Of a stretch of DNA of 48,066 nt, positions 764 through 35,586 are shown in pieces. A program made the translations under genes and the position numbers. Numbering within the stretch: the first letter of the stretch is position 1; every line of letters begins with the position of its first letter. This DNA is from a virus: positions 1-48,066 of IMG/VR virus record IMGVR_UViG_3300047089_000085. One strand, 5' to 3'. The notes under the pieces are model-generated. The model saw only the letters and a program-made list of their open reading frames with translations, searched no databases and was not told where the DNA came from.

Positions 764-3049
764 TTAGGTCGCATCGGGATACATCCATAATGCCCAGTCG
801 TATTTTCCGGTGCGCGCCGCCGAGCTTGCATTGCCGAACGTGAGTACAGTTGGCCGGCCCGGCTCGGTGACATCTACGAACGATGATCCCGTGGAGTGAG
901 ATACCGGGGTTTCATCGTTGACGGAAATATAGATGTTTGTGCCGTCTTGCCACGCTTCGATGATTACCCAATTAGTCGTTGGGGCCACCGTGCTAAGTAC
1001 GCTGTTTGCGATGCTGGTGCTCGCGCAGACCATGTAAAAGCCTGTGGAGATTTGACTGAACACGCCCATCATCGGCGACTGATACCCGGATGCGGTCACC
1101 GCTCCCACGACATACTGATCGCCGGATCCGCTTGTTCTGACGACGGGCGTAGTCCCTACTTTGATGCGCGCCGCCATATACCATTTCGCAGATGGACCAT
1201 TGGCAATGGCCGCGCCGCTGGCCCTTATTTGAGCCAGACCACCGCCCGCGGCGACTGTGTTCTGCGCCAGCACGCCGCCGCCAACGTCGGTCGCTCCCCT
1301 AAGGAGCGATTGCGTCCCGCCGCCAGCGTACGTTGTCAGCCAGTCCGCCGCTTCGAGGGTGGCGGACACACTGAGCGAGTGGAAATCGTCCCACGTGTAC
1401 GAGAACGCATTGGCCGTGAATCCGGCCTTGGTGTAGCCGCGCCCGAGATACTTTTGCAGCGTGGTCGCAGTCGGCGATCCGCCTGCCCCATTGTCTGCCC
1501 ATGACATCGTCACGACGCCGCCGCTTGGGGCGGTCCCCGTCAGCACCTGGCCAGCCGTTGGATCCGCCGCCGGCCACACGAAAGACAGCGCCGAGGCTGC
1601 ATTGCCCGCCTGGATCTTCGTGAGGTTGGCCGAGCTGGCGTGTGCCAGCGCGAGCACGCCGGTGTGCGACGAGACCGTGCCGAGCCCGAGGATGTGATTC
1701 GTGTTGTCCCAGGTGTAGTCGGCCGAGCCGCCGAGCACCGAGCCCGAAGCCGACCAGTAAGCCGCCTGCCCCGACGTCCCGCCGCCCGTGACGACAGTCG
1801 CGTAGCTGCCCGCGTTCTGCGAGACCTCGGCCGCTCCGCCATTACTGCGGAAACGAACGGTGCCCGAGGCGCCAGCGGGCAGGAGGCTGTTTCCCAGCAT
1901 CTCGACGCCGCCGTAAAGCAGCGCCCCGCCGCGCAGAAACGGCGTCAGCACAGCGTCGGTCTGATTCCACCACTGGATCTCCGACGGCGGATTGCCGTCG
2001 CCGGCCGCGAGCCGCACGGCCGCTAAGCGCGCAAACTCCGTGTTCGTGTCATCGCGCCACAAGATACCGGTGCCGAAGCCAGTCGACGCCGAGCCGCTCG
2101 TCAGGTGGTCGATATAGATCGAGTCCGTCGTCGTCGTCGTCGCGGTGTCCGACTCGAACACGTGCAGCCTGGCGAGCACGCCCGTGTAGTCGGCCGAGCT
2201 GCCAGACAGCGGATTCACACCGACGCCGACGTTGCCGAACGACGTTTGAAGCGGGACGATCGAAGCGCTGCCGTCGTACGTGTAGAGCGCGGCGTTCACC
2301 GTGTCGCTGCCGGAGACCTTCTTCCACGTGAGCTTGCCGCGCTCGCCGCCGGTCGAATCGGCGTTGTTGCGCATGCTCGCCACGACGCTGACCGACGGTG
2401 TGCTCGATGCCGCCGCGTGATTTGCTCGCAGCGAAATCGCGTTGCCGACGGCGACGGAGGACAGAGCGCCGCCCTGGCCTACAACGAGCGTGTCGGTGCC
2501 CGTCGTGCGTTGCGCGAGCTGCCCGAAGTGGTGGTCCGTGCCGAGCGCCTCGAACGCGCCTCCGACCTGGAGGATGCGGCCGGACGTCGGCGCGCCGCCG
2601 GTATTGATGCCGAGCGCCGTGTTCGCGTGGTCGTAGAACAGCGACGAGTAGCCGCCGATGTTGGTCGACGTCGTCCAGACCGCGACGTAGTCGGCGGTGC
2701 CGGTGCCGGTGACGAGACCGAGATCCGCGACCGGGGCTTTGTAGGAGACGCCGAGGGCCGCGCCGCTGTCGGCGGTCAGCACCTTGCCGTTGCTGCCGAC
2801 GGGCACGCGGGCGTCGGCCGTGTCGAATCCCCACAGGTCGCCCTTGGTGGTGAGCGGGCTCGAGCTGCCGCCGCCGGACGAGGTCGCGCGGACGTCGCCG
2901 TGCGAGAAATCCCAGGTCACCGAGGCGGTGTCGGTGAACAGCACCCGGGCGCTGGCATAGGGCCCCCCGCCGCCCACGGCGCCGGCTCCGATGTCGTCCC
3001 AGTCGCCTTGCAGGTTGCCGGAGTCGTGGGCGAGACGGCCGATGCTCAC
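764..3049 (-). CDS. Large tail fibre / receptor-binding protein, 761 aa
   Basis: Structural virion protein, probably the host-recognising fibre. Residues about 65-110 hold the fibre motif PLTTKGDLWGFDTADARVPV followed by GSNGKVLTAD, typical of phage fibres that carry short beta-repeat stalk segments. The middle is Gly/Ser/Thr-rich stalk. The last roughly 210 residues form a separate compact domain (YMAARIKVG, WVIIEAWQDG, YDWALWMYP) that looks like a concanavalin/LamG-type beta-sandwich, which fits glycan binding. It starts with GTG; AAGGGA lies 7 bases upstream inside a promoter-like repeat (3054-3086). It is the first minus-strand gene after the plus-strand lipoprotein insertion, so it needs its own promoter. 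The 3' end of the gene is visibly less GC-rich than its neighbours, as often seen in exchanged receptor-binding tips. Confidence 0.85.
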   Translation of the reverse strand: MSIGRLAHDSGNLQGDWDDIGAGAVGGGGPYASARVLFTDTASVTWDFSHGDVRATSSGGGSSSPLTTKGDLWGFDTADARVPVGSNGKVLTADSGAALGVSYKAPVADLGLVTGTGTADYVAVWTTSTNIGGYSSLFYDHANTALGINTGGAPTSGRILQVGGAFEALGTDHHFGQLAQRTTGTDTLVVGQGGALSSVAVGNAISLRANHAAASSTPSVSVVASMRNNADSTGGERGKLTWKKVSGSDTVNAALYTYDGSASIVPLQTSFGNVGVGVNPLSGSSADYTGVLARLHVFESDTATTTTTDSIYIDHLTSGSASTGFGTGILWRDDTNTEFARLAAVRLAAGDGNPPSEIQWWNQTDAVLTPFLRGGALLYGGVEMLGNSLLPAGASGTVRFRSNGGAAEVSQNAGSYATVVTGGGTSGQAAYWSASGSVLGGSADYTWDNTNHILGLGTVSSHTGVLALAHASSANLTKIQAGNAASALSFVWPAADPTAGQVLTGTAPSGGVVTMSWADNGAGGSPTATTLQKYLGRGYTKAGFTANAFSYTWDDFHSLSVSATLEAADWLTTYAGGGTQSLLRGATDVGGGVLAQNTVAAGGGLAQIRASGAAIANGPSAKWYMAARIKVGTTPVVRTSGSGDQYVVGAVTASGYQSPMMGVFSQISTGFYMVCASTSIANSVLSTVAPTTNWVIIEAWQDGTNIYISVNDETPVSHSTGSSFVDVTEPGRPTVLTFGNASSAARTGKYDWALWMYPDAT

Positions 3050-3181: not shown

Positions 3182-3210
3182 TTGCACGGCCCTGCGCAGA
3201 GCAGCACAAT
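3182..3210 (+). promoter_or_regulatory. Possible moron promoter
   Basis: TTGCAC (3182-3187) and CACAAT (3205-3210) are separated by 17 bases and lie just before the ATG at 3217. The match to sigma-70 boxes is moderate (three and four of six bases). The -10-like box is only six bases from the ATG, which would give a leaderless transcript. It fits the need of the inverted lipoprotein genes for their own promoter. Confidence 0.3.
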
Positions 3211-3216
3211 GGCTGT

Positions 3217-4125
3217 ATGTCGACCATGCAGAAACCGAAGGCGAAGGCGGACCGGCGGACCCTCACGATCATGGTGCGGGCGACGGCCGTCGAAAAAGCG
3301 ACGCTTGCGGCGGCCGCGGCGCGCGTAGGCCTCGACCTGAGCGGCTGGCTGCGCTCGGTGGGCCTCCAGGCTGCAGCCAGGGCCTCCGCGCTCGCGCTGG
3401 TGGCCTTCCTGGCCGCTGGGGGCTGCTCAGGCTCGGCGGCCATGCCGGGGACCGCTGGCGGGGCCGGGGGGGCCTCGGGGGCGGGCGGAGACGACGCGGG
3501 CGCCGACACGCTCGGGCAGGCCGGCGCGGGGGGGACGGGCGGGAACGCCGGGGCGGGGGGCGCTGGGGGCTCTGCCGGAGCTGGTGGCGCCGGTGGCGCG
3601 GCGGCTGACGGCGGGGCGCCCGACACCGGGAAGGACACGGCCCCGGCGAGCGATGCGGTGAGCCACTGCCCGACGTCGGCTCCGTGCGATGCGGCGCCGG
3701 ACATGCCCCCGGCTCCGATCGGAGCGTGCGGTCAGGCGAACTGGCCAGCCGAGGGAAGCGCGTGCGTCGGCACGAACAAGTGGTCTCTCAATCCCCACGT
3801 CCAAAATCCAACGTGGACATGCTGGTGCGACGGTGGTGAGGCCGACGGGGGCGAAGGCCTGGCAGGAAAGATCGTCTGCATGTGCCCGCCACCGGTCGAC
3901 GCCGGTCCGGTCTACCCGAGCTGCCCGGCGAACGGTCGCCTGCCCGAGGGCGTGTCTGGCTGCGCAGCGCCGGAAACGCCGTGCGACTGGCCGGTCGGCG
4001 CCACGTGCAACGCCGTCAACACGGATGCAGGCGCCTCAGTACCAAAGGGATCCCGCTGCCTGTGCGAGCCCGCCGATGGCAGCGGCGATCTCACCCATCC
4101 GCGCGTCGTGCGCTGCTATTGCTGA
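3217..4125 (+). CDS. Ribbon-helix-helix domain joined to a Cys-rich lipoprotein (moron)
   Basis: An unusual 302 aa protein. Residues about 10-47 look like a ribbon-helix-helix DNA-binding domain of the MobC/antitoxin type (a basic beta strand RRTLTIMV, then EKATLAAAAARVGLDLSGWL). This runs directly into a hydrophobic stretch ending LAAGGC, a lipoprotein-like lipobox. A Gly/Ala-rich linker (GGAGG repeats) and a Cys-rich C-terminal half follow, of the kind seen in myxobacterial outer lipoproteins. An in-frame GTG in LRSVGLQ (about residue 43) could start a plain lipoprotein with a good signal peptide (V then GLQAAARASALALVAFLAAGGC), so one gene may give two products. It lies on the plus strand inside the minus-strand tail block: a moron, probably expressed in the lysogen. 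A role in surface change or exclusion of other phages is only a guess. Confidence 0.75.
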   Translation: MSTMQKPKAKADRRTLTIMVRATAVEKATLAAAAARVGLDLSGWLRSVGLQAAARASALALVAFLAAGGCSGSAAMPGTAGGAGGASGAGGDDAGADTLGQAGAGGTGGNAGAGGAGGSAGAGGAGGAAADGGAPDTGKDTAPASDAVSHCPTSAPCDAAPDMPPAPIGACGQANWPAEGSACVGTNKWSLNPHVQNPTWTCWCDGGEADGGEGLAGKIVCMCPPPVDAGPVYPSCPANGRLPEGVSGCAAPETPCDWPVGATCNAVNTDAGASVPKGSRCLCEPADGSGDLTHPRVVRCYC

Positions 4126-4138
4126 AAGGAGAAAGGAA

Positions 4139-4510
4139 ATGCTACTCCGCCTAGGTCTCATAGCAGCACTCGTATTCGCAGCGTCAGGGTGTTCGGTGGC
4201 CGATTCGGCCGATGCCAGCGATGGAAGATCTGACTACGACTCGGGCACAATCGACGCTGTCACAGTTTGCGATCCGACCAATGCGTGCTCATTCCAATAT
4301 CGCGCAGGACTAACCTGCAACGGCCACGCGTTTGTCGGATTCACTCCGTGCGTCGACGAGTCCCAAGCGGAAACCAGAATAGGAACCTGTTACCCGTTGA
4401 ACGAATCTTGTACCGGATATGGTTACCAGGCTGATCCGTGCGTTATTGGAGACGAAAATCTTGCTTGCGTCTCAAGCTGCGAGGCCTGCGGCCTCCACAA
4501 TAGGCATTAG
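4139..4510 (+). CDS. Small Cys-rich lipoprotein (moron)
   Basis: A 123 aa lipoprotein. The N-terminus MLLRLGLIAALVFAASGC is a clear signal peptide with lipobox ASGC; the mature part is acidic (Asp-rich to about residue 42) and then holds about ten cysteines, likely forming disulfides outside the cytoplasm. AAAGGAGAAAGGAA in front of the ATG is a strong ribosome site, 13 bases after the stop of the preceding lipoprotein gene, so the two form one operon. Its base composition is clearly lower in GC than the surrounding phage genes, a sign of separate origin. The stop overlaps the stop of the convergent gene at 4507. No specific family is recognised. Confidence 0.8.
   Translation: MLLRLGLIAALVFAASGCSVADSADASDGRSDYDSGTIDAVTVCDPTNACSFQYRAGLTCNGHAFVGFTPCVDESQAETRIGTCYPLNESCTGYGYQADPCVIGDENLACVSSCEACGLHNRH
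4481..4495. terminator. Short hairpin at convergent gene ends
   Basis: GAGGCC-TGC-GGCCTC is a perfect 6-bp stem with a 3-base loop, placed where the plus-strand moron operon meets the minus-strand tail genes. It lies inside the end of the lipoprotein gene and is not followed by a T-run on either strand, so it is at best a weak or factor-assisted terminator. Confidence 0.25.
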
Positions 4511-5676
4511 GTGACGTTGAGTGCCGGCAGCACGCCGATCGAATAGGCGCCGATCCGCAGCGTGTTCGTGGTTCCGTTGCTCTTGCCGGCTAGGACGATT
4601 CGCTCATAGGCTAGATCGGCGCGGCCATCGAAATACATTGCGGACGTCGAAAGCGCCGGATACCAGGCCCAGCTCGTTCCCGAGATCGTCGTGATGAGGT
4701 TCGCGAAGCTCGTCATCCCGCCGGCGCCGTCTTGGTGGCTCACGCCGACGCTACCGTTATCAGTGGCACCGGACATCGCGGCATAAACGCGCACCGCGAC
4801 ACGAACGGTTGTGGAGATCCCGGTCGCCGCCTTGTAGAGCGGGAACGTGATCGCTGGTCCCGTCGACGCCGGAGACGTGCCGCCGGTCCCGACCGATTGA
4901 TCATGGATGTAGCGGTAAGCTTGCGTGCTGGTATTGAAGTTGACATAGCCGTTGCCGGGGTCGATGGCGTCCCAGCCGATCATCGGGCGCTTGCGGTTGA
5001 CGGTGTGGTTGAAGTTCGAGCGGAAGGTGTCGAGCATCGACGTGCTCGAACCGATGCCCTCCGTCACGATGTCACGGCCTGGCGCGATGTGATCGTGTGG
5101 CGTGTACCCCATCAGGGAGGCGTCCTGAGAACTCTCAGCGCATTCGTACACGATGCCCGCCAGGATCTGCACGCCGTTGGTCGTCAGACTGCCAATCGTG
5201 ACCTCAAACAACCGCTGATTTACGTCGTCCGGCGTTACCTCGAAGGACATCACCTCGGAGCCCGTAGAATCGAGAAAGCGCTCCGTCGTGTTGATGAGGT
5301 TGTACAGCGTCTTCTCCACGATCGGATTATCAGGAAAGATGTGACCGCCGGAATCGATCCCGCTGATGCGAATCGCCTGGCCGTCGACCTGTGCACCGTT
5401 GGGGCGCACGACGATGAGCACGAACCGGAGACGAGTCGCAGCCTGGTGCTGATGATCCCAAAGGAACCGGCGGAGCGCGTTCGCATCTCTCGTGTCATCG
5501 CCACCCCAGAAGGTTCGGATGATACGACCGCTCGAAGCGATCGAATTGAGCGCCGAGACGTAGCGCGCCATCAGCGAACCACTCGGGATGCCGAGGTTGC
5601 CCTGGCGCTCGGCATCGTCGAATCCGCCGAAGGCTCCGGGCTGCACGACCGCGAACCGTCCTGGAACGTAGACCAT
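4507..5676 (-). CDS. Tail-associated structural protein, 389 aa
   Basis: Probably a virion protein of the tail tip, by position between the 972 aa tail protein and the fibre. It has no signal or membrane segment. The N-terminal half is mixed alpha/beta (RFAVVQPGAFGG; RLRFVLIVVRPNG). The C-terminal part from about residue 240 is a Gly/Ser/Thr-rich beta domain (GYVNFNTSTQAYRYIHD; RIGAYSIGVLP) resembling the beta-sandwich end domains of the fibres here. ATG start; AAGGAG lies at the end of the preceding gene (AAGGAGTAGCGATG), so translation is coupled. No named family is recognised. Confidence 0.7.
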   Translation of the reverse strand: MVYVPGRFAVVQPGAFGGFDDAERQGNLGIPSGSLMARYVSALNSIASSGRIIRTFWGGDDTRDANALRRFLWDHQHQAATRLRFVLIVVRPNGAQVDGQAIRISGIDSGGHIFPDNPIVEKTLYNLINTTERFLDSTGSEVMSFEVTPDDVNQRLFEVTIGSLTTNGVQILAGIVYECAESSQDASLMGYTPHDHIAPGRDIVTEGIGSSTSMLDTFRSNFNHTVNRKRPMIGWDAIDPGNGYVNFNTSTQAYRYIHDQSVGTGGTSPASTGPAITFPLYKAATGISTTVRVAVRVYAAMSGATDNGSVGVSHQDGAGGMTSFANLITTISGTSWAWYPALSTSAMYFDGRADLAYERIVLAGKSNGTTNTLRIGAYSIGVLPALNVT

Positions 5677-22081: not shown

Positions 22082-23023
22082 CTAGGCGGAGAAGCCGGTG
22101 AGCTTGAACGCCTTCATGCGGTTGCGGGTCGTGAGACCACCGGCCCAGGTCATGAGCCAGCGATCCGAGTCGTCGTTTTTGGCGAGCGGCACGACGTTGA
22201 GCGGGCGCTGCGTCGCGATCTCGATCTGCTCGCGCTCGACGCCCATCCAAATGCTGTTCGTGAGGTCGCGCAGCGGGATGACCGGGATGCCACCGACGGC
22301 CATGTTGGTGTAGTCGCCGAGATTCATCACGTAGCCGCCAGCGCTCACCAGCGTGCGGACGCTGTTGCTGGTCTGGCCCGGATTCCCGAAGACGCCCTTG
22401 GCCTTCATCATCTGCTTGTGCGACGTGAGGATCAGGTTGATGTTCGCGGCGTACTCGGGATCGCGAACGTTCTGCAGCGCGGTGTCGATGTCCGCGACCG
22501 CGATCGTGGTGCTCGACGTGTTCTCGTACGCCGCCCACCACGTGTAGGTGTTCGGGTCGATGCCGGCGAGCGTGCCCGCGCTGTCGACGATGCCCTGGAT
22601 GCCGACGGGAGCCGTGACGCCCGTGCCGAGCATGTCGGTGGTGATCAGGTCGACGAGATCCTTCGTCGCGTATGTGAATTCCTTCTCGGCCTGGTCGAAG
22701 AAGACGGCCGTCTGATTGCCGCCCTGCGTCTGATCGTAGACGTGGCCGGTGATCGAGATCGTCGCCCGGTAGTGCTTCTCCGGGAAGTTCGCGGTGAGGT
22801 AGCTCTGCGAGCCGGCCACACCGAGGGCGTCGCCTTCGGCGTAGGTGCTGACGCTCGAGTTGCCACCGTAGTGGATCTTGTAGTTCTTCGTGGCGCCGCC
22901 TTCCCAGCCCGCGGGGGCGAAGAGCGGCATGAGCTCGTTGTTTCGGAAGAGCGCTTCGGACAAGCCGGCTGCGGCCGTGGTCCGAAGTGCTGCGGTGAGT
23001 GCTGCTGTGGCCGTACCTGCCAT
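22082..23023 (-). CDS. Major capsid protein (HK97-like fold, probable), 313 aa
   Basis: Forms the icosahedral shell. It follows the scaffold gene directly and has the expected size. The N-terminal Ala-rich helix (TAALTAALRTTAAAG) is followed by the extended-arm-like region (VSTYAEGDALGVAGSQSYLT) and then by strands and helices of a capsid core (KHYRATISITGHVYD; DLVDLITTDMLGTGV; INLILTSHKQMMKAKGVF; GGIPVIPLRDLTNSIWMG). No N-terminal delta domain is present; a separate scaffold gene replaces it. ATG start 15 bases after the scaffold stop. Confidence 0.85.
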   Translation of the reverse strand: MAGTATAALTAALRTTAAAGLSEALFRNNELMPLFAPAGWEGGATKNYKIHYGGNSSVSTYAEGDALGVAGSQSYLTANFPEKHYRATISITGHVYDQTQGGNQTAVFFDQAEKEFTYATKDLVDLITTDMLGTGVTAPVGIQGIVDSAGTLAGIDPNTYTWWAAYENTSSTTIAVADIDTALQNVRDPEYAANINLILTSHKQMMKAKGVFGNPGQTSNSVRTLVSAGGYVMNLGDYTNMAVGGIPVIPLRDLTNSIWMGVEREQIEIATQRPLNVVPLAKNDDSDRWLMTWAGGLTTRNRMKAFKLTGFSA

Positions 23024-23778: not shown

Positions 23779-23843
23779 GGTTGCCGTCGCCTGATTGCGG
23801 CTCAGGTAGCCGTCGCCGGATTTAGGCCCCGGTAGCCTTCGCC
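23779..23843 (-). repeat. Three 26-bp tandem repeats between portal and scaffold
   Basis: On the minus strand the core GGCGA(A/C)GGC(T/A)ACC occurs at 23843-23831, 23817-23805 and 23791-23779, exactly 26 bases apart, with GCC conserved at the same offset behind each core. The array covers the last codons of the portal gene and the leader of the scaffold gene, downstream of promoter-like copy B. A binding site or leader RNA element is possible. Confidence 0.55.
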
Positions 23844-25552
23844 TGGATTGGCCGCCCAGGTTGCGGTTTTTGCGTCCCTTGTTCCCCCGGCTTGGCGTTG
23901 TCAATAGGCTTCGCGCCGGGCGGTAAATTGGTGGCGCCGGCGAGCGACTCGGGGGCGTCTGAGATGGCGAGCGCGGCGGCCTGCATAGCCTCGCGGACCA
24001 TGGCGTCTTGCGCCTTTTTGTCCTCGACGGACTTCAACAGCGCGTCGACCTCCTCGGATGGCAGTGAATCGCTCCACCGTCGGCGCACGAGGTCGGAGAT
24101 CAACTGCACATCCACCTCGGCTGGCAACCCGAGCTTTTGGAACGCGAGCGCTTCGTCGAGGTCGGCCTTGAAGCTGCGCACGTCGAAATCGCGCGGGTAG
24201 ACGATTCGGATCTTCGCGGCCTTCGTGTCCTTGGTGGAGTAGGACAGCACGAGCTCGGCGATGCGCCGCTCGGCGTCCTGGCCGGCCTGCGCGATGTCGG
24301 CGAGCAGCGATTTCTTGTCGTCGCTTTCGAGCTCGAGCGCGGCGGCGCTGGACTTCTGCTTGCTGCCCTCGCTCTGCCCGCGGCCGACCCCGATCACGCT
24401 CTTGGCCTGCTCGAGCTCGGAGCCGATGAGCATCATCAGCACTTCGAGCTGCTTCGCGTCGGGCGAGATGTACTCAGGCTTTGCGCTCGAGGCGCCAGGG
24501 TCGTAGCCGAACGCCGTGTTGGTCCCGATCTGGGTGGCGTCGAGCGACTTCGACGGATCCGGGATGATGAGCCACGAGAACGTCTGCTTGTAGGCGATCT
24601 CGTCGGCCAGCGAGCAGTGGTTGAAGATGCTGTTTCCGATCTTGGCGATGTCGCCGACCAGAGACACGCCGTGCGGAAAATCGCTTTCGGTGTCCTGCTG
24701 CGCGTACACCGGCTCCCACGGCACGCGACCGATCGTGATCGGCCGACGCGCGACCTCCTGGTAGCCCTGCGCAACGTTGGCCGGCCCGCGCGTCGACTCG
24801 TAAACGACGTACTCGATCATCTCGGTCTTCGTCCAGATGCGATAACGGCTCTCGGCCTCGAATGGCTCGTCCCATCGCCGTTTTTTCTCGGTGGCGACGT
24901 ACTGTTTCAGCCATTCGATCTCGCCGTCGTCGTCGGCTTGCCAATCGACGACGTCCTGCGGGCTCACGCCGTAGACGTAGGGCTTGCCGTCGGCATCCTC
25001 GTCGTTCGGATCGTCGTTGATGTCCGCGACGACCCACCACATCCCGGCCCAATTGGCTTTGCGCAGGATGTCGCGCATGAACACCTCCATCGAACAGAGC
25101 CGGTCCTCGTCGGTAGCCTCCCAGAAGTCTTTGAGCACCTTCGGGCCGTCGCGCGTAACGCCCGACTTCATGGCGTGCGACACGAGCGAATTGACGACGG
25201 GCTTGACGATGTTGAAGTAGCGCGCGCGGCGGTTGCGGTTGTAGTACTCCCAGGCTTTCTCGCGGGAGTGCCGGTGGAGCATCGAGCGAAACGCGGTGAC
25301 CGAGAGCTCGAGCTGCTGCTGTTGCGTCGCCAGCGTGGTCAGGGTGCCATCGCTGTTGCGGCTCAGGATCGGCTCCGTGAACTCGACTGAGTACCTCACC
25401 GGCTCGAGGTACGACTGCCCTCCCTCGTAGCTGATGCGCAGGAACTCCCACCACTTGTCGCGGCGGTTGTAGAGGGGGTGACGCTTTGCGATCCAACCCG
25501 CACCGGCCGTGTTGATGGTCGTGGCTACGGAGGCGGCGCCTGCTACGGACAC
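23822..25552 (-). CDS. Portal protein, 576 aa
   Basis: Forms the dodecameric ring at the packaging vertex. It is placed after the terminase genes and before the scaffold. Portal-like features: HPLYNRRDKWWEFLRISYEG near residue 25, the stem/wing part SIFNHCSLADEIAYKQTFSW (about residues 310-330), a helical crown-side segment LELESDDKKSLLADIAQAGQ and a long helical C-terminal region with a Pro/Gly-rich tail. The start is GTG at 25552 with AAGGGA seven bases ahead, inside promoter-like copy C. Length is normal for siphovirus portals with an extended C-terminus. Confidence 0.85.
   Translation of the reverse strand: MSVAGAASVATTINTAGAGWIAKRHPLYNRRDKWWEFLRISYEGGQSYLEPVRYSVEFTEPILSRNSDGTLTTLATQQQQLELSVTAFRSMLHRHSREKAWEYYNRNRRARYFNIVKPVVNSLVSHAMKSGVTRDGPKVLKDFWEATDEDRLCSMEVFMRDILRKANWAGMWWVVADINDDPNDEDADGKPYVYGVSPQDVVDWQADDDGEIEWLKQYVATEKKRRWDEPFEAESRYRIWTKTEMIEYVVYESTRGPANVAQGYQEVARRPITIGRVPWEPVYAQQDTESDFPHGVSLVGDIAKIGNSIFNHCSLADEIAYKQTFSWLIIPDPSKSLDATQIGTNTAFGYDPGASSAKPEYISPDAKQLEVLMMLIGSELEQAKSVIGVGRGQSEGSKQKSSAAALELESDDKKSLLADIAQAGQDAERRIAELVLSYSTKDTKAAKIRIVYPRDFDVRSFKADLDEALAFQKLGLPAEVDVQLISDLVRRRWSDSLPSEEVDALLKSVEDKKAQDAMVREAMQAAALAISDAPESLAGATNLPPGAKPIDNAKPGEQGTQKPQPGRPIQAKATGA
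23872..23904 (-). promoter_or_regulatory. Promoter-like repeat, copy B (before scaffold and capsid)
   Basis: Minus strand: TTGACA (23904-23899), 17 bases, CAAGGGACGC (23881-23872). It lies inside the 3' end of the portal gene and 123 bases ahead of the scaffold ATG. Because no gene starts directly behind it, the conserved CAAGGGACGC cannot be explained as a ribosome site alone, which supports a DNA-level role such as a promoter for scaffold and capsid. Confidence 0.5.
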
Positions 25553-26456: not shown

Positions 26457-27833
26457 CTACAGCGCCCGCATCACCGGGGGCTTGATCGAGTAGCTGATGG
26501 CATAACGCAAAGCGGTCACCGCGTGATCACTCTGATGCGCCGCTGGTTTCTCGAGCCAATCCCCGCGCGGCGTCTGCTCCCATCGGTAGCTGCCGATCTC
26601 ACGTACGAGGTTCGGACACCTCGGCTTGACGATGTGCACCATGCCTCGATGGATCAGGCTCGCCACGGTTCTGATGCCGCTCAGGATCGACCTGGCGTGC
26701 TCGTCGTACTTGCCGCTGCCGAAGTTGCGATGGCCCACCGCCCGCATGCCAGCGCGGGTGAACCGACGCAAGTTGTCGGGCTCGGCAGGGTCGCACACCC
26801 ATTCCGAGAACTGGTGCTCGGCCTGCAACCTCAGGCCATTCGGGACCCAGAAGTCCTCCACGAGCTCGGAACGCTGATAAACCTCGTCGAAGGCCCAGAT
26901 GTGGCCGCCTTGGGTGATGCCGACGATGAGCTCGGCGCCCGGGTTCGAGATGCCCCAGTCAACCCCGCCGAGGATGCGCGCGAACTGGATGCCCTCGGGC
27001 AGAGCGTCGTGCTCGTAGCGAGTGTGCCAGTGCTTGTAGATCTGACCCTCAAAGACGTTGAAGCGTCCGCGGTACTCCCGCTCGAAGTACTCGGGCGGCA
27101 TGTCCCGTTGCGCGTCGGCGATCTCCTGCCGCGGAATGTAGGGGTTGTCCGCCGTCTCCCAGGTGAAGAACGCATAGCCGGGGGTGCCCTTCTCGGCCGG
27201 CTCGACAAACCGCTGGTGCACCCAGTCGTAACCCATGGGCGTCGTGGTCACGATGGCCCACCCGTCTTTGTCCGACAGTGCGGCGCGAAGGAACTGCAGC
27301 CACGCCGATGGCAGGAGCCGCACGGCCTCCTCGATCCACAGGCCGTTTAGACCTCGAGCTACCAGCCGCTTCGGGACCTTGCCCGACTTGAACTGGATTT
27401 TGATGTCCTGCTCGAGCCACCACACCCGGCTAGCGGTGTTGGTGTGCTCCATCAGCTCCTCGGGGATGACCTGAGACAGCGCCACCTGCGACTCGTCGAG
27501 GAGGTCATACGTCTCGGCGACAACCCAATACAGCAGCCGAGGCTTTCGTTTGTGCCATTCGGCCGTGTCGACCTTGGCGTTGCCGCGCGAATAGATCAGG
27601 GCGGCGTTGTGCGGCTTGCCGGCGTCCCGCTTGGCGATCTCTCTAGCTTCGGCGCGCTGGTTCCATTCGAGATCGCGCATCATGCGGTTGGCGAACTTGC
27701 GCGCGCCCGAGTAGGTCTTGGTGCCGCGTCGGCCGGTGACGGCGCAGACGAACCGCGCCGGTGACTTCATGAACCCAAGGGCCGCGGGTATCGGCTGGAG
27801 GCCGCCGCCCATGCGGAGCGCCTGCTCGATCAT
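26457..27833 (-). CDS. terL: Terminase large subunit, 458 aa
   Basis: ATP-driven DNA packaging motor and nuclease. Walker A is TGRRGTKT (residues 33-40), Walker B is GLWIEEAV (about 164-171) with Glu168/169 as catalytic candidates, and TTTPMGYDW (197-204) is the coupling motif. The RNase H-like nuclease part has acidic residues in GGVDWG (Asp292), VCDPAE (about Asp348) and QSDHAV (Asp436). The ATG at 27833 overlaps the stop of the small subunit gene (ATGA). Length is normal for the family. Confidence 0.9.
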   Translation of the reverse strand: MIEQALRMGGGLQPIPAALGFMKSPARFVCAVTGRRGTKTYSGARKFANRMMRDLEWNQRAEAREIAKRDAGKPHNAALIYSRGNAKVDTAEWHKRKPRLLYWVVAETYDLLDESQVALSQVIPEELMEHTNTASRVWWLEQDIKIQFKSGKVPKRLVARGLNGLWIEEAVRLLPSAWLQFLRAALSDKDGWAIVTTTPMGYDWVHQRFVEPAEKGTPGYAFFTWETADNPYIPRQEIADAQRDMPPEYFEREYRGRFNVFEGQIYKHWHTRYEHDALPEGIQFARILGGVDWGISNPGAELIVGITQGGHIWAFDEVYQRSELVEDFWVPNGLRLQAEHQFSEWVCDPAEPDNLRRFTRAGMRAVGHRNFGSGKYDEHARSILSGIRTVASLIHRGMVHIVKPRCPNLVREIGSYRWEQTPRGDWLEKPAAHQSDHAVTALRYAISYSIKPPVMRAL

Positions 27834-28247: not shown

Positions 28248-29618
28248 TCACGCTGCCTGCACAGCGCGGCTTTCGACCAGCTTCGGCTGCAGGCCCATGC
28301 CGGCCATTCGCTCCAGGATCACCGCGGCGTACCGCGGGTCGAGCTCCATGGCGAAGCAGCGGCGGCCGAGCTGCTCCGCGGCGACAAGCTGGCTCCCCGA
28401 TCCGCCGAAGGGCTCGAAGCACACCTCGCCCGGCTTCGTGTGGTTGCGCATCGGGATCGCGAAGATCTCGACGGGCTTCTGCGTCGGGTGGACACGCTTG
28501 CCGTTCGAGGTCTCGTTGGTGATTTCCCAGACCGACGTCTGGTTCCGCTCACCGTAGAACGGCGGCCTGTGCCCCTGCACCCAGCCGTAGAAGCACAGCT
28601 CGTGGCGCCAGTGGTAGTCGCCGAAGCCGAATAAAAGTGACGGCTTCACCCAGATAATTTGTCTGTGGAGCACGAGATTTGCAGCAGCAGCAGCAGCAGC
28701 AGCAAAAAAAGCCTGCGTCTTATGCGCGTGCCACAGGTACCAGGCGGCGGTGGGCTCGAGCGCGGAGGCTATCGCCGCGCGGAAGCAGGCCTCGAGGAAT
28801 GGCTGGATGTCCTCGCCCGTCTTCTCGTCGTTGTCGATGCCGTCTTCCCACTTCGGCATCCGCGCCTGCCGAACGTGCGCACGGTCGGCAGCTACACGCG
28901 TATCGTCGGTGTACGCCACGCCGTAGGGCGGGTCGGTCGCCATGAGCGCCGCGCGCTGCCCGTCCATCAGCCGCGCGACGTCCTCGGCCTTCGTCGAGTC
29001 GCCGCACATCAGCCGGTGCGCTCCGATCTCCCATACCTGCCCGAGCGCCGTCGCCCACTTCGCCGCAAGCGCCTCGCCGGCCTCCGTGTTCGCACCGGGG
29101 TCTTCGCCCGTCTGCGGCTCTGGCCCGAAGTTCGCCCAGAACTTCTCCAGGTCAAGCTCGGCGAATCGAAAGTGCTGCTCGATCTCCTCGAACTCTATCC
29201 CGCCCTCGGTCATGAACTCGGACAGCCCCTCCCCGGTGATCTCGCCGAACTGGCTCGTCAGGCTGAGCACCTTCATCCGTGCCTCGCGCTCGTCTGCGGC
29301 CTCGACCCACGAGACGGGTAGCGGCGGCACCGTCCACCCATCCTCGCGCATTTTGGTGAGCGCGCGGACACGCTGGTGGCCGTTGAGGATTCGGATCTTG
29401 CCGTCGGGATGCTTCCAGCATGAGACGGGCTCGCTGAAGCCAAGCTCGATGATGTCGAGTCGGAGCTTCTCGTAGTTCTCCTTCGATAGGTCTTTGAGGC
29501 CACCTTGAAATGCAGTCAGCTTGTCCAGCTCAACGACGGCGGCGCCGCTGCACGCGATGCGCACGACGCGCTCACCGCCCGACGTTGCCACCGGCTTGGG
29601 TTGCTTCTTACTCGCCAC
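28248..29618 (-). CDS. ParB-domain DNA methyltransferase, 456 aa
   Basis: Methylates amino groups of adenine or cytosine in DNA, probably to protect the phage genome. The N-terminal ParB-like domain carries ILNGHQRVRAL (about residues 77-87). The methyltransferase domain has DPPYGV (229-234, motif IV) and EPFGGSGSQLV (SAM-binding motif I) near the end, i.e. circularly ordered as in beta-class enzymes. GTG at 29618 is chosen because AAGGGGA lies seven bases ahead; a GTG at 29636 lacks this. A run of eight alanines encoded by (GCT)7-GCA follows FF near residue 300. Adjacent to the terminase genes. Confidence 0.85.
   Translation of the reverse strand: MASKKQPKPVATSGGERVVRIACSGAAVVELDKLTAFQGGLKDLSKENYEKLRLDIIELGFSEPVSCWKHPDGKIRILNGHQRVRALTKMREDGWTVPPLPVSWVEAADEREARMKVLSLTSQFGEITGEGLSEFMTEGGIEFEEIEQHFRFAELDLEKFWANFGPEPQTGEDPGANTEAGEALAAKWATALGQVWEIGAHRLMCGDSTKAEDVARLMDGQRAALMATDPPYGVAYTDDTRVAADRAHVRQARMPKWEDGIDNDEKTGEDIQPFLEACFRAAIASALEPTAAWYLWHAHKTQAFFAAAAAAAANLVLHRQIIWVKPSLLFGFGDYHWRHELCFYGWVQGHRPPFYGERNQTSVWEITNETSNGKRVHPTQKPVEIFAIPMRNHTKPGEVCFEPFGGSGSQLVAAEQLGRRCFAMELDPRYAAVILERMAGMGLQPKLVESRAVQAA
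28681..28710. repeat. GCA x8 trinucleotide repeat plus A7 run in the methyltransferase gene
   Basis: On the plus strand GCA is repeated eight times (28681-28704) and runs into AAAAAA, giving seven A in a row. In the protein it encodes Phe-Phe and eight alanines. The triplet run can change length without shifting the frame; the homopolymer could switch the gene off by slippage. Confidence 0.85.
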
Positions 29619-29889
29619 CCGCAGTCCCCTTGCCACCGTTGCTCGTGAATCGCAAGACGACCTCGTAGCGTGGCGGGTCGTCGGGGTTGTGGTGGCGGTG
29701 GCTCTCGGCCTGAAACGACACGCCCAGCCGCGTCAGGTAGCGGGCGTCCCTCCCGTAGGCCAGCACGACCGGGCCGCATGTCGCTTGGTACCTCAGCAGG
29801 GCGTGCACACGTAGGGAACTGTGGGTTGCGGTACCGTTACGGCTGCGCGGGATGTACGTCTTTTCGCTCTCTTTGGGCTTCCGCTTCAC
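29608..29889 (-). CDS. Hypothetical basic protein, 93 aa
   Basis: Not recognised. It starts KRKPKESEKTYIPRSRNG after the initiating GTG, and the body has several strands (PVVLAYGRDARYLTRLGVSF; RYEVVLRFTSNGG), so a small beta domain is likely. The GTG at 29889 overlaps the TGA of the preceding gene (GTGA), and its stop overlaps the start region of the methyltransferase gene, which ties the three together. No cysteine motif or membrane segment. Confidence 0.6.
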   Translation of the reverse strand: MKRKPKESEKTYIPRSRNGTATHSSLRVHALLRYQATCGPVVLAYGRDARYLTRLGVSFQAESHRHHNPDDPPRYEVVLRFTSNGGKGTAGGE

Positions 29890-30279: not shown

Positions 30280-31074
30280 TCACCATCCGACTGCTCCCCA
30301 CCGTCGAACCATCTCCTGGTGCTCAGCCGCGCTGCGTGCCCCGACCGCTGGGTCCGTGCCGATGGCTGCGAAGCGCCCCGCGCTGTTGACCATGCGATGC
30401 ACGAGCGAGTCGGGCGCCGTGCTCTCGACGAGCGCCGAATGCGCGCCGACGTTCTGAATCCACGCGAACCGGCGATGCGCCTCGGTCACCACGTCGCCCT
30501 CGGGCGCGATGTTCAGCGCGCCCGATTCAAGGATGTGGCACCGACGAACACCAGCCGCGTTCGCCTTCGCGAGAAACGCGGTGTCACAGTGATACCAATC
30601 CTCGTCGAAGCCACCGAGCGACTTCCAGATATCGCGTCTGACGACCCATCCCGAACACGTGGGAAAATCGTTGTGCCTCACGAAGTTTCCGCCCTCGTCG
30701 ACCTCGCGCTGGTTGCTGGTCACGAAGTCGAAGCGGTCGCCGACGACTGACAGCGCCGTCGCCAGCCACGCCGGCTCCCACGCGTCGTCGTCCTCCAAGA
30801 ACGCGAGCCATTCACCCTGCGCGAGCGACGCGGCCCCGTTGACGGCGTGCGCCTGGGTGGCCTGAGACGCCATGACGAAGAACACGCCGCCGTCCCTGAA
30901 GCGCGCGGGCACCTTGTCGAGCGCGCCGGGGTCGAGTCCCACGATCACCTCGTGCGGGCGGTGCGTCTGCCGCCATGCGGAGTTGACGGCGCGGTCGAGA
31001 CACAGCGTCCCCGAGACGATGGTGGACGGCAGCGGCTGAAGCCGCGACGGGATGATGACGCTGACCGTGGTCAT
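30280..31074 (-). CDS. Family 2-like glycosyltransferase, 264 aa
   Basis: Sugar transferase using an NDP-sugar. MTTVSVIIPSRLQPLP is the standard first strand of GT-A enzymes; EWLAFLEDDDAWEP (residues 88-101) holds the metal-binding DDD, and FDEDWYHCDTAFLAKANAAG the later acceptor/catalytic Asp region. It lies at the downstream end of the glycan block. ATG at 31074 overlaps the stop of the preceding gene (ATGA), so the long upstream reading is not coding. No membrane segment, so it acts in the cytoplasm. Confidence 0.85.
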   Translation of the reverse strand: MTTVSVIIPSRLQPLPSTIVSGTLCLDRAVNSAWRQTHRPHEVIVGLDPGALDKVPARFRDGGVFFVMASQATQAHAVNGAASLAQGEWLAFLEDDDAWEPAWLATALSVVGDRFDFVTSNQREVDEGGNFVRHNDFPTCSGWVVRRDIWKSLGGFDEDWYHCDTAFLAKANAAGVRRCHILESGALNIAPEGDVVTEAHRRFAWIQNVGAHSALVESTAPDSLVHRMVNSAGRFAAIGTDPAVGARSAAEHQEMVRRWGAVGW

Positions 31075-31553
31075 CCGGCGGCTCGTCGCGAGCGAATCTC
31101 GTCCACCTTCGCCGAGGCACGTTCGAAGAGCGATTGAAGAGCCTCCACCTTGCGACCCTCGTCGGTGAACAGCTTGCCGGCCACGGCCAAGTTGTCGCGA
31201 TGCCGCGACGTGGCGACCTCCAGCCGTCGCCGCGTACGCGGCGCCGCGTTCTCCTCGGTGTCCTTCCCCGGCCTCGTCGCGCGCCACGAGCCGCGATCCT
31301 TCCGGTCGCTACACCACCCCAGTCCATACTGCGACATCAGCAGATCGCGAATCCTGGTCGCATGACGTTTGAGCAGCACGATCTCGTTAACGCCGACCTC
31401 GTCAAGAGCAACGCCAAGAACAATGCTCGCTAGTTCCGACCATTGAAATGAAGCTCCAGGTCGTCGCCTGGACTGATATTCGACGGCGGCAGCGGCTCGC
31501 GCGACGACTGGTTTGCCATGATCGGCCTTGAATCCTGCGAAATTGAGCATCAT
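31071..31553 (-). CDS. Hypothetical protein, 160 aa
   Basis: Not recognised. It has a hydrophobic helix pair around residues 38-70 (WSELASIVLGVALDEVGVNE; IVLLKRHATRIRDLLMS) and a charged, Arg-rich second half with a coiled-coil-like end (VEALQSLFERASAKVDEIRS). The ATG at 31553 has GGAGG seven bases upstream and overlaps the preceding TGA. It lies between two sugar genes, but shows no enzyme motif. Confidence 0.6.
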   Translation of the reverse strand: MMLNFAGFKADHGKPVVARAAAAVEYQSRRRPGASFQWSELASIVLGVALDEVGVNEIVLLKRHATRIRDLLMSQYGLGWCSDRKDRGSWRATRPGKDTEENAAPRTRRRLEVATSRHRDNLAVAGKLFTDEGRKVEALQSLFERASAKVDEIRSRRAAG

Positions 31554-32056
31554 GTCTTGTCCTCCGTTGTTGTAGGCGTCGCGACAAATGAAATCTCATT
31601 CAAGACTCTCCACGAGCTTGCTGGCCAGTGGTGTCCGTAATTGCAGTGCTCAGTGCATGGTTCTATCGGATAGAGGCGTTCGCCCCATTTCACAATCACT
31701 CTCGCTCCACACGGGGACGTGCCCCACTTCATCCGCGGACGAGGAGCGAGACCGGCCAGCGGCCGCTTCCCGACGCGCGCCAACGCCGCTTCGAGTCTTT
31801 CGATCTCATTGAGCAGATCTGGCACCATTGCGCTGATGCTTACCTCCGCATCGATCGCAACTACTTGCTGGCCACGGTAGGCGTCTGCGCCACGGTACTC
31901 GCCGCGCGCGATATCGCTCTCGACCATCGCGAGCAATTTCCGGCCAGCGTCTTTTGATCCGCCCACGTTGCGGTGCCTGAGGGTGCCATCCGGCTCGCGC
32001 CAGCGCGCGACCCATGTCCGCCCGCGCTGATCCTTCCGCTTGAACAGTGCGCCCAT
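31550..32056 (-). CDS. Protein with integrase-like arm-binding domain and Cys/His end, 168 aa
   Basis: Residues 1-55 (LFKRKDQRGRTWVARWREPD; GSKDAGRKLLAMVESDIARG) look like the N-terminal arm-type DNA-binding domain of tyrosine integrases ('R-G-x-x-W-x-A-R-x-R-x-P-D-G'). No catalytic domain follows. Instead there is a helix pair (MVPDLLNEIERLEAALARVG) and a new end with EPCTEHCNYGHHW, a possible metal site. The real integrase lies at 46053. It may be a DNA-binding regulator built from an integrase fragment. ATG after TAG-CC; linked to the fusion gene upstream. Confidence 0.6.
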   Translation of the reverse strand: MGALFKRKDQRGRTWVARWREPDGTLRHRNVGGSKDAGRKLLAMVESDIARGEYRGADAYRGQQVVAIDAEVSISAMVPDLLNEIERLEAALARVGKRPLAGLAPRPRMKWGTSPCGARVIVKWGERLYPIEPCTEHCNYGHHWPASSWRVLNEISFVATPTTTEDKT

Positions 32057-32058
32057 GG

Positions 32059-33522
32059 CTACGCCTCCATGAGCTGCTTGAGGTAGGGCCGATAGAGAAT
32101 CTCGGCCTGTCGGTCATTCAAGAAATACTCAGGACGAGTCAGAACGTCGGCGCCGTGCGGCAGAAGCTGGAGCGCTGAATAGTGATAGGACACGACCGGC
32201 CGCCCCCCTCGATGCGGGACGCCCCCGCGCACGTCGAGCGCCCTCGCGTGGATGTTCCACGGCGCCGCCATTGCCCCCGGATGCGTGACGACGTGGGCGC
32301 CAAACCGCTCCGGCCACGCGTCGAGGTACGCCTGGTCGCCGTACCGCATGCGTCGGTCCTGAACCGGCGCCTGCTCGATGCGATCGAAGCACCAATCCCG
32401 GCACTCGCTGGCCCAATCCTCGGCAACGGCCTTGTCGCCGAAGTGCACGATGCCGACGTTGAAGGTACCGAAGACGCCGTGGCTCTCGACCGTCGGCCCC
32501 GGCAGCCCCGCCGACCTGGGCGCGAAGCCATGAGGGATGACCCCAGCGCGCGCCCCGCCGATTTCCGCGAAGACCGGCTCGGGGGAGCTGAAAAACGCCA
32601 CATCGGCGTCGACGTAGGTCACCGGCTCGCCGGTCTGCCGCATGACGTGCTCGACCCACTGCGGACCCACCGACCACATGTGCTCGGTGCGCGTCCGCCT
32701 CGGTCCGGGGAGCGCGTCGATCGCGAGCGCGGGCCACTCGGCGAGGAATGCATCGACGGGCGTCGCGCGCATCCCGGCCGCATTGGCCTTGTCATACGCC
32801 TCCGAGTCCCAGCACAGCGCATGAAGCTCGACGTGCGGCATGTGCTTCTGAAGCGTCGCCCACATCGTGCGCGCGCGCGTCCAATACTGCGCGTCGAAGT
32901 ACGTCGCAAAGACGCGCGGGCGCGAGAAGACGATCGCCATCGTGCCGGCGTCCGCTTCGAACACCAGGCCGCGAGTGAAGCCGTGGCGTTGCATCTCGGC
33001 CTCAAGCTCGGCGACGCCGAGTCGAAGCGCGGGGAACGATTGTCCGTAGCCTTTCGTCTCGAACCGCTCGGTCTGCTCGGCAAGCGGGATGCGATGCAAG
33101 ATGACCCAGCGCCGCGATGCCGCGCACATGTTCGCGACGTGCTCTTTCCACTCGTCGCCGTCGGTCCGATGAATGAGCGAACAGCCGTCGATCGTGATGT
33201 CGAAGGAGCGGGGCACCACCTGCGTCCCGAGCTCGGGCAGCCACCGCGACTCGGGGTAGCGCTCGCGCGCGATGGCGAGCGCCGGCTCGCTGATGTCGAT
33301 GCCGGTGTATGAGCGATAGGGAATACCGCCGCGGTCGAGCACCTCGCGCCCGTATCCGCTCGCGCACCCATATTCGAGGATGGAACCGGGGCAGTTCGTC
33401 GACTCGATGGCCTTCATGAAGGCGCCGAACGCCTGCGGCCATGTCTGGCTCGCGATCTGCTCGTCAACCAGCGCACGCTGCTGCGCCGCGACATCGGCCG
33501 TGCACCACGCTTCGCCGCTCAT
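32059..33522 (-). CDS. SAM methyltransferase fused to a glycosyltransferase, 487 aa
   Basis: Two enzymes in one chain. Residues about 25-200 are a class I SAM methyltransferase: ILEYGCASGYGREVL (48-62, motif I) and YTGIDISEPALAIARERYP (72-90, motif II). Residues about 205-487 look like a nucleotide-sugar transferase with VTYVDADVAFFSSPEPVF (301-318), DAD being the metal-binding motif, and GTFNVGIVHFGDKAV later. It could add a sugar and methylate it or its acceptor. The ATG at 33522 overlaps the preceding TGA; the in-frame ATG at 33546 is not supported. No membrane segments. Confidence 0.8.
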   Translation of the reverse strand: MSGEAWCTADVAAQQRALVDEQIASQTWPQAFGAFMKAIESTNCPGSILEYGCASGYGREVLDRGGIPYRSYTGIDISEPALAIARERYPESRWLPELGTQVVPRSFDITIDGCSLIHRTDGDEWKEHVANMCAASRRWVILHRIPLAEQTERFETKGYGQSFPALRLGVAELEAEMQRHGFTRGLVFEADAGTMAIVFSRPRVFATYFDAQYWTRARTMWATLQKHMPHVELHALCWDSEAYDKANAAGMRATPVDAFLAEWPALAIDALPGPRRTRTEHMWSVGPQWVEHVMRQTGEPVTYVDADVAFFSSPEPVFAEIGGARAGVIPHGFAPRSAGLPGPTVESHGVFGTFNVGIVHFGDKAVAEDWASECRDWCFDRIEQAPVQDRRMRYGDQAYLDAWPERFGAHVVTHPGAMAAPWNIHARALDVRGGVPHRGGRPVVSYHYSALQLLPHGADVLTRPEYFLNDRQAEILYRPYLKQLMEA

Positions 33523-34412
33523 GACGCGCTCTTTCCGAGATTGCATGTCGAACAGAGCGCTCTAAGGTTGTCCTCTTCGTTGCCGCCCCCTCGGGCTACG
33601 GCGACAATGTGATCGACATGAAGCACAACGTGTGGCGGTTTGGCGCCGCACATCTGACATGTCTGGCCGTCACGCAATAGTATTCGATGCCGCACAGATG
33701 GTCGTACGGCATCGCGACGCTTCTGCGGTCGGCGAAACATCCATAGTAATTCCTTCCACAGTCTGACGCGTTCATCGGTACTGTTGTGCGTCGGATCCGC
33801 GCGCCAGTCCTCGCCGCGTTGATCGCAGTCTTGCAAGTAGCGCCATAGCATCCCCTCGTACCTCTCCGCCGCGCGTCGCCCAGCTGTCGCCCACCACTGT
33901 TCGCCCAATACTCTCGCACTACTCCTGCGCAACCAGTCGCGTCGCTTTGGCCCTGGCTGCGGACCGGCGTAGATTAACCAGCGCCTGTCTTTCCCATCCT
34001 CGCCGGCAGGCTCTCCCTTGCCGCGTAATGCGAAACGTCTATCGCCCTGGTCCTCATTGTACATGCAGCCCAACTCTCGGATATCGAGCTTCGAGGTGCA
34101 ATGGGCTTCTGCGATACGCCATTCAGCGCGTTGTGCTTCTCTCCATGCTTCCCGGCTGGTCGCAGCCTTCATTAGTCCGACGAGGTATCGGCTCATATCA
34201 GCCGCCTTTATCCGCGGCTTCTTGGGCCAGTAATAGAATGATTCGCTGATATAGAAGTCTACGTCGAGCGCGGGAAAGGTCTTCTTGAGAGCATGGTGCT
34301 CGGTGAGCGTATAGCTGTAATGATCCGGCTCGCCCCTGACCGGAAACCGCAACAGCTCACGCACACCAGACGAGTCGTCCGCCGCGCTTTTGCACTGTGC
34401 CGCGCCGCTCAC
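33519..34412 (-). CDS. HNH endonuclease-like protein, 297 aa
   Basis: The C-terminal 60 residues are a clear HNH domain: CQMCGAKPP, then VLHVDHIVAVARGGGNEEDN and LRALCSTCNLGK, with both zinc Cys pairs and the His-Asn-His core (DH, N, and the following helix). The first 220 residues are not recognised; they are charged and Trp/Arg-rich. The GTG at 34412 overlaps the preceding stop. It interrupts the sugar block, and its base composition is lower in GC than its neighbours, so it may be an inserted mobile gene. Confidence 0.8.
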   Translation of the reverse strand: MSGAAQCKSAADDSSGVRELLRFPVRGEPDHYSYTLTEHHALKKTFPALDVDFYISESFYYWPKKPRIKAADMSRYLVGLMKAATSREAWREAQRAEWRIAEAHCTSKLDIRELGCMYNEDQGDRRFALRGKGEPAGEDGKDRRWLIYAGPQPGPKRRDWLRRSSARVLGEQWWATAGRRAAERYEGMLWRYLQDCDQRGEDWRADPTHNSTDERVRLWKELLWMFRRPQKRRDAVRPSVRHRILLRDGQTCQMCGAKPPHVVLHVDHIVAVARGGGNEEDNLRALCSTCNLGKSAS

Positions 34413-34984
34413 AGCTTCCTCACGGCGATCAGCTTCGCGCTCTCATGTAGCAGCTCCAGCTTCCGCCTGTAGCAGGACACGAAGGCGCGAATCGCCGTGC
34501 CCGGCGCGTCGGTCGGATCGCGATCCACCGGTCGCCACTCGTAATCGTCGAACATGAGGATCCCTCCAGGCTTGAGTAAGTCGAAGACGCGCACGGCGTC
34601 GTTGAGCACAGCGGCTGACGAGTGGTCGCCGTCGATGAAAGCGGCATCGAACGGAGCCCAACGGACGCCGCTGTTACGAGCGTCCTCGACGCGCCACATG
34701 GCATCGACCGGCAGCGCGCGGCCGCGGGTGTTGTCCACCCATCGACGACGGACGGCGTCCCAGTCGTCTGTAGGCCGGTCGGCATACGAGGCGAACGGCT
34801 CGACGCACACGATGTCGCAGTCCTCGCCCGTCAGGATCTCATCGAGGAACCAGCATGCCGTGCGCCCCTCGTAGCTGCCGACTTCCAGGATTTCGACGCC
34901 GTCCTTGCCGACGAGGTGCGCGAGCATGTCCTTCATCGCGGGATAGATCTCGCTCGACCAGTCGACGGTGAAGTCGTAGGCCAT
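34409..34984 (-). CDS. SAM-dependent methyltransferase (type 24-like), 191 aa
   Basis: Methylates a small molecule or sugar. VEILEVGSYEGRTACWFLDE (residues 30-49) is the SAM-binding motif I, DIVCVEPFASY motif II, FDAAFIDGDHSSAAVLND (112-129) the Asp/His region typical of methyltransferase type 24, and LLKPGGILMFDDYEW the post-IV motif. ATG at 34984 shares a base with the preceding stop. Part of the tight sugar block; often found with glycosyltransferases in surface-sugar clusters. Confidence 0.85.
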   Translation of the reverse strand: MAYDFTVDWSSEIYPAMKDMLAHLVGKDGVEILEVGSYEGRTACWFLDEILTGEDCDIVCVEPFASYADRPTDDWDAVRRRWVDNTRGRALPVDAMWRVEDARNSGVRWAPFDAAFIDGDHSSAAVLNDAVRVFDLLKPGGILMFDDYEWRPVDRDPTDAPGTAIRAFVSCYRRKLELLHESAKLIAVRKL

Positions 34985-35586
34985 CAGACGGCCCTCGCGA
35001 CGATGGCGCAGCTTTGCACCGCTTGCGGCTGGCCCGTGTGAATGTCGAGGATTCCCGCCGACGCCGGGATGTTCAGGCGCCAGTCGCACGAGAGAATCTC
35101 CCAACACGGGCGACAAAAGATGATGCGCAGGCCCGACGGCGTGAACCGCCAATGATCTGAGGGACTGGGGTGATAGGGGAACTGGAACGGCACCGACACG
35201 ATCGCGAGCCCGCCGACGCGCAGCACGTCGCGTATCTGCATGACCGCCTCGAACGGCTGCTCGACGTGTTCGAGCGTCGACAAGCAGATAACCGTGCCGA
35301 CGCTGTTGTACCCGTACGCCTCCGAGAGCTGCGCGATAGAGCATCCACCGGTGCCGGGGTCCTCGCATCGGTAGCCGGGCGCCCACTCCTCGAGCGGGCG
35401 GTGCGCGTTGATGTACCGAAGCTCTTGCGCCTTGACGATGTCGACGCCACGCTTCAGTGCGTCGATGGTGCGGCGGTAGTCCGCCAGGCATGGGTATTCG
35501 AGTCCACCGGCCTCCACCACGAGCTGCGGCAGCGCGCCGTGCGCGGCGACCGTCTCGGCGATGAGCCCAACGTCATCCGCAAACAT
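34984..35586 (-). CDS. SAM methyltransferase (type 11-like), 200 aa
   Basis: Carries VICLSTLEHVEQPFEAVMQI (about residues 98-117) and VLRVGGLAIVSVPFQFPYHP, the motif IV and post-IV regions of type 11 methyltransferases, and DHWRFTPSGL, a common finish of sugar-cluster methyltransferases. The usual Gly-rich motif I is weak or missing near the N-terminus (residues 20-60), so the first part may be shortened or divergent. It begins directly after the aminotransferase gene's stop (TGA-ATG). Confidence 0.75.
   Translation of the reverse strand: MFADDVGLIAETVAAHGALPQLVVEAGGLEYPCLADYRRTIDALKRGVDIVKAQELRYINAHRPLEEWAPGYRCEDPGTGGCSIAQLSEAYGYNSVGTVICLSTLEHVEQPFEAVMQIRDVLRVGGLAIVSVPFQFPYHPSPSDHWRFTPSGLRIIFCRPCWEILSCDWRLNIPASAGILDIHTGQPQAVQSCAIVARAV

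Follow-up and report, generated by a model that had tools for sequence, protein, structure and literature searches.

In a viral record of 48,066 nucleotides (IMGVR_UViG_3300047089_000085; this whole stretch of DNA is termed the window), one gene encodes a ribbon-helix-helix (RHH) DNA-binding domain that continues in the same reading frame into a lipobox-containing lipoprotein signal, which is followed by a linker rich in Gly and a domain rich in Cys. Both RHH regulators and surface lipoproteins of phages are familiar, and phages normally make a small RHH domain as a separate protein; the frame described here is genuine, unusual, and built from these two known kinds of part. The sequence itself shows that the frame is continuous, that it encodes an RHH domain and a lipoprotein signal, and where the join lies with respect to unfused relatives, and a fusion of two genes is the likely interpretation. 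The product may act at the surface and at the same time control its own gene; alternatively, two neighbouring genes may simply have fused.

The Fused Gene and Its Setting in the Phage

The 302 codons are open from ATG 3217 to TGA 4123–4125 (plus strand; Table 1), and a codon-preference measure derived from the genes of this phage supports this frame over 3210–4109, the join included, which bears out the single unbroken frame from RHH to exported region reported in the preliminary description. Between 3340 and 3605 there is no stop in any of the forward frames, thus a single sequencing or base error cannot have made the fusion or masked a stop of the RHH part. The phage carries an integrase gene (46053–46988, minus strand). 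The fused gene and the ordinary lipoprotein gene that follows it are flanked by minus-strand genes at 764–3049 and 4507–5676, the latter lying 3′ of the second lipoprotein gene. This two-gene plus-strand block is a moron-like insertion, and the earlier placement of the gene in a moron fits, since the phage genes around the two are encoded on the other strand.

Table 1. Features of the fused gene, its neighbour and selected phage genes in the window.
Feature	Position	Strand	Basis
Fused RHH-lipoprotein gene, 302 aa	3217..4125	+	open frame, codon preference
RHH (NikA-like) domain, residues 13-55	3253..3381	+	Pfam PF21983 (domain alone), profile search, alignment with stand-alone RHH proteins
In-frame GTG (V48), proposed second start, inside RHH helix 2, no Shine-Dalgarno	3358..3360	+	alignment, start-site scan
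Hydrophobic signal, residues 56-69 (ASALALVAFLAAGG)	3382..3423	+	hydropathy, lipobox scan
Lipobox cysteine C70	3424..3426	+	PS51257-like pattern
Gly-rich low-complexity linker, residues about 71-141	3427..3639	+	translation, tandem repeats
Cys-rich domain, residues 151-302	3667..4122	+	Cys positions
Shine-Dalgarno AAGGAG (strong), second gene	4126..4131	+	
Second, ordinary lipoprotein gene, 123 aa, Cys-rich (textbook signal MLLRLGLIAALVFAASGC)	4139..4510	+	ORF, lipobox
Major head protein	22082-23023	-	
Portal	23822-25552	-	
Large terminase	26457-27833	-	
Glycosyltransferases (two)	30280-31287, 36666-37922	-	
DegT-type aminotransferase	35587-36735	-	
Helicase	38731-40374	-	

The RHH Domain

By sequence comparison, residues 13–52 are assigned to an RHH domain of the NikA/MobC kind. 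The Pfam NikA-like family (PF21983, gathering cut-off 27 bits) matched these residues with 29.7 bits when residues 1–57 were scored alone, i.e., without the low-complexity remainder of the protein, and with 28.1 bits in the genome search; the whole 302-residue protein scored 25.4 bits, under the cut-off. The match stops at about position 41–42 of the 72 profile positions, and positions 42–72 are unmatched in the window protein. The NCBIfam relaxosome RHH models MbpA, MobA and TraJ, which describe accessory RHH proteins of plasmid mobilisation, matched the same stretch weakly. A profile was also built from 17 phage RHH proteins; the window was excluded from it, but the proteins had been gathered by means of a pattern based on the key residues of the window. 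This profile recognised the window frame with E 2.9e-11 (the next frame had E 0.5) and with 43.6 bits, against a maximum of 10.7 bits in 2000 shuffles. Since that set was chosen by the window's key residues, it is the Pfam search that provides the independent, unbiased test. With the window domain added as first row, the 17-protein profile led to the NikA structure 2ba3 (E 1.7e-10).

The motif VRxTxxE...A...GLxxSxWLR is common to the window, the NikA-like or MobC-type relaxosome RHH proteins and the small phage RHH regulators. However, known NikA-like members are cytoplasmic and either end after the domain or go on into a helical tail, whereas in the window protein a lipoprotein signal follows instead. 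The beta-alpha-alpha fold of RHH proteins is an obligate dimer, the strands of which form only in the dimer; hence a single-sequence AlphaFold model of residues 1–61, a monomer computed without alignment that gave one long helix (pLDDT 70, pTM 0.36), is uninformative on the fold, and so was AlphaFold on the whole protein. The assignment of residues 1 to about 47 to an RHH domain in the preliminary description therefore stands as to the domain, on Pfam and profile evidence, but not as to its extent, which reaches to about residue 55.

Position of the Join and Start Codons

Stand-alone RHH relatives from other phages and from bacteria are about 50–75 residues long and end where the lipoprotein signal of the window begins. 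In the alignment of the join, one of them (L102) finishes with ...LDVSAWLRSLGLREAGQKPG and a stop, another (L070) with ...LSVSTWLRDIVLKAAR and a stop (its last residues being WLRDIVLKAAR), and the window reads ...LDLSGWLRSVGLQAAARAS before the join and ALALVAFLAAGGC directly after it. The stand-alone relatives thus continue through the residues that were first assigned to the lipoprotein leader. Since they span that stretch, V48 must be placed within the RHH helix, and it follows from their extent that the lipoprotein lacks a separate start codon ahead of the hydrophobic core. The suggestion that an RHH gene has fused with a lipoprotein gene is well supported, as the stand-alone relatives stop at the join and a second virus (L029, see below) has the two as separate, overlapping genes.

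The cysteine of a lipoprotein usually lies within about 15–35 residues of the start. Counted from ATG 3217, C70 is at position 70, which is unusually remote from the N-terminus; counted from GTG 3358 it occupies position 23, as is normal. It may thus be proposed that two products arise from one frame, the lipoprotein mainly from the GTG (MGLQAAARASALALVAFLAAGGC, a normal 23-residue signal) and a minor long form that bears the RHH domain, and the L075 fusion described below, in which the exported part retains its own start within the fused frame, speaks for such an arrangement. However, the alignment makes GTG 3358 a codon of RHH helix 2, it is not preceded by a Shine-Dalgarno sequence, and there is no stop that would yield a free RHH domain. 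A Shine-Dalgarno sequence is likewise absent at ATG 3217, and because several other genes of the phage also have no clear one, its absence does not decide between the two codons. Production of the lipoprotein from the GTG is accordingly judged rather unlikely, yet serious as an alternative; of the two in-frame starts proposed earlier, what holds is that dual starts in RHH-to-export fusions are possible in general, by analogy with L075. The promoter-like hexamers just upstream of ATG 3217 are weak (7 of 12 positions matched), and as 2.6% of ATGs do as well, the idea of a leaderless promoter was set aside. No operator at the fused gene was found by inspection.

The Lipoprotein Signal and the Exported Part

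The segment that follows the join, ALALVAFLAAGGC, is the most hydrophobic stretch of the fused protein, and the lipobox segment ALVAFLAAGGC has a mean hydropathy of 2.2. Among the 465 stop-free frames of at least 60 aa in the window, a lipobox after a strongly hydrophobic stretch occurs at two sites only, in the fused gene and in the next one, and when residues 56–302 were shuffled, a lipobox with a hydrophobic stretch at most 25 residues from the RHH end appeared with a frequency of 0.0003 (0.03%). Lipobox scan, hydropathy and shuffles thus confirmed the signal and the Gly-rich, Cys-rich region seen earlier. The Cys-rich domain contains the spacing CxC-x16-CxC twice (202/204/221/223 and 281/283/300/302) and had no family match in domain searches. 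An internal duplication of the Cys-rich half was considered and rejected: the Cys spacing does repeat, but the alignment is not significant (59 of 500 shuffles reached an equal score).

The host is suspected, on account of such Gly-rich lipoproteins, to be a myxobacterium. For myxobacterial lipoproteins a sorting rule is cited in PMC5562445, according to which proteins with no Lys at +2 and no Ala at +7 would go to the outer membrane. If the host is a myxobacterium, the fused protein, with neither residue, would be predicted to reach the outer membrane. Ala occupies +7 after the lipobox Cys in the second lipoprotein (window 4190–4210, plus strand) but not in the first, so that in such a host the two might be sorted differently.

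Relatives and Comparison Cases

As to homologues with and without the N-terminal domain, stand-alone RHH relatives were found as described above, and whole-protein and domain searches of four collections (viral_contigs, genome_contigs, phages and plasmids) gave no homologue of the complete fusion. A DNA pattern for VRxTxxExxxLxxxAxxxGLxxSxxLR retrieved 61 viral loci, and 28 loci, of which 23 were new, came from a second pattern; read in frame, the viral loci collected in this way all resemble short RHH proteins. The 61 loci were inspected in detail, and apart from the window gene only L075 joins RHH to an exported protein; in 198 genomes from a single bacterial phylum there were 25 RHH matches, none of which continues in frame into a strongly hydrophobic segment. 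The joining of RHH to export is rare, and no enrichment is claimed. Some candidates were discarded. An initial DNA pattern, which was biased in GC, gave matches due to chance, at one viral locus and at three genome loci, the genomes of the latter having no NikA-like match. An apparent relative reached by reading L070 through its TAG stop was a low-complexity alignment, and the next reading frame of L058, with a hydrophobic start, was regarded as the antisense of an ORF on the minus strand. In the titles and abstracts of the papers retrieved by full-text search, with most subscription journals outside the scope, no fusion of RHH to a lipoprotein or signal peptide was described, and a literature search of the same scope for membrane-tethered RHH regulators found none.

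An unfused arrangement is that of L029, a 46.7-kb virus record in which, as in the window, RHH immediately precedes a lipoprotein (MNRLILVVLFSAC) that has a Gly-rich linker and a Cys-rich domain, and the pair is located on the strand opposite to the adjoining minus-strand, portal-side genes. In contrast to the window, there are two genes, the RHH gene ending in ...CGATGA and the lipoprotein gene beginning at the overlapping ATG (ATGA), and the lipoprotein has a C-terminal hydrophobic anchor. The L029 RHH protein scored 27.3 bits against the NikA-like family, above the cut-off, and no relative of the window's terminase or P0001 was found in the record. Together with a small membrane protein the two form a coupled mini-operon (L029:6276–7216, plus strand) with TGATG and ATGA junctions.

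In L075 (IMGVR_UViG_3300020195_000020) a small RHH domain runs in frame and with no stop into an exported protein, as in the window, but this is a DUF1559 pseudopilin with an N-methylation motif (Pfam E 1.9e-28 and 1.9e-7), a prepilin signal and an H-X9-DG C-terminus, so that the export signal is of the prepilin type, and the exported part has its own internal ATG with AAGG upstream. L089, which comes from a different metagenome, has the same fusion and differs at a single one of 4269 bases. The RHH-pseudopilin fusion, the nearest plasmid matches of which are from Planctomyces and Singulisphaera, is independent of that of the window. The unfused L029 pair and this second fusion suggest that the arrangement may recur.

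The rarity of such joins and the single known instance of the RHH-lipoprotein fusion are in line with a neutral or recent accidental event, in which the RHH domain, tolerated as a long n-region, would be a passenger with no regulatory role. However, every invariant position of the RHH family is retained in the window domain and codon preference is intact over it, thus no decay is visible, and an accident of this kind is considered unlikely. Even if the fusion were accidental, it would still document that morons bring their own regulator and that such gene pairs merge.

A Possible Mechanism

The explanation preferred here, although only tentatively, is that a phage RHH regulator gene was fused at its normal C-terminus to a gene for a Gly/Cys-rich surface-lipoprotein cargo in a temperate-phage moron, and that the RHH domain is cytoplasmic and represses its own gene until export relieves the repression. 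The precursor made from ATG 3217 would be inserted by Sec with RHH on the cytoplasmic side, and signal peptidase II would cleave before C70, so that the lipoprotein proceeds to the cell surface and the RHH domain is retained at the inner membrane by the remnant of the signal. As long as the precursor is cytoplasmic, RHH dimers might repress the moron's own promoter, and export or tethering might then take RHH off the DNA, in the way that PutA is taken off by membrane binding. For the surface part, a role in lysogenic conversion, e.g., superinfection exclusion of the Ltp type, is conceivable. One chain would then be both regulator and surface lipoprotein, a compact tie between the expression of a lysogenic-conversion protein and its export. 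It is a considerably more doubtful proposal that some phage morons encode repressor and surface cargo as one precursor, and that the DNA-binding domain is cut off or set free by export itself, through signal peptidase II in the window and prepilin peptidase in L075, which would report successful export to the promoter.

Autorepression relieved by export is preferred by analogy with PutA, which represses its own gene through an RHH domain and comes off the DNA on binding to the membrane (PMC5293562). Both proteins have an N-terminal RHH domain on a protein that also acts, or would act, at the membrane; yet PutA is a trifunctional peripheral flavoenzyme and is not exported, and a Pfam search of the window protein found no proline/P5C dehydrogenase domains of PutA. 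Another likeness is to the SitA outer-membrane-exchange toxins of myxobacteria, which are also lipoproteins carried by prophage-like elements (PMC5562445). Membership of this group was rejected, as no toxin domain (nothing beyond the NikA-like match), no adjacent immunity gene and no overlapping sitB were recognised in the window.

The N-in topology and the single hydrophobic segment would suit a one-component membrane regulator like ToxR or CadC, with RHH inside, a Cys-rich sensor outside and no cleavage by signal peptidase II. The segment is, however, only about 14 residues long and ends in a lipobox, which is typical of a cleaved signal, and the next gene encodes an ordinary lipoprotein, so a regulator of this type is very improbable. 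Least credible of all is an assembly or sequencing artefact joining two genes: the join is found on a single contig, the near-identical fragments L002–L004 stopping short of it, but with no forward-frame stop near the join a single indel would be insufficient, and codon preference is continuous.

Other Genes of the Phage

A sugar-modification cluster extends over 30280–37922 (minus strand) and includes, besides the glycosyltransferases and the aminotransferase of Table 1, two proteins with a methyltransferase domain; it may modify the virion or the host surface. A ParB-like domain is joined to a DNA methyltransferase at 28248–29636 (minus strand), and a second ParB-like protein is encoded at 40371–41336 (minus strand). 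Near the integrase gene there is a tRNA-Ala (cgc) at 45753–45835 (minus strand), which is possibly att-related.
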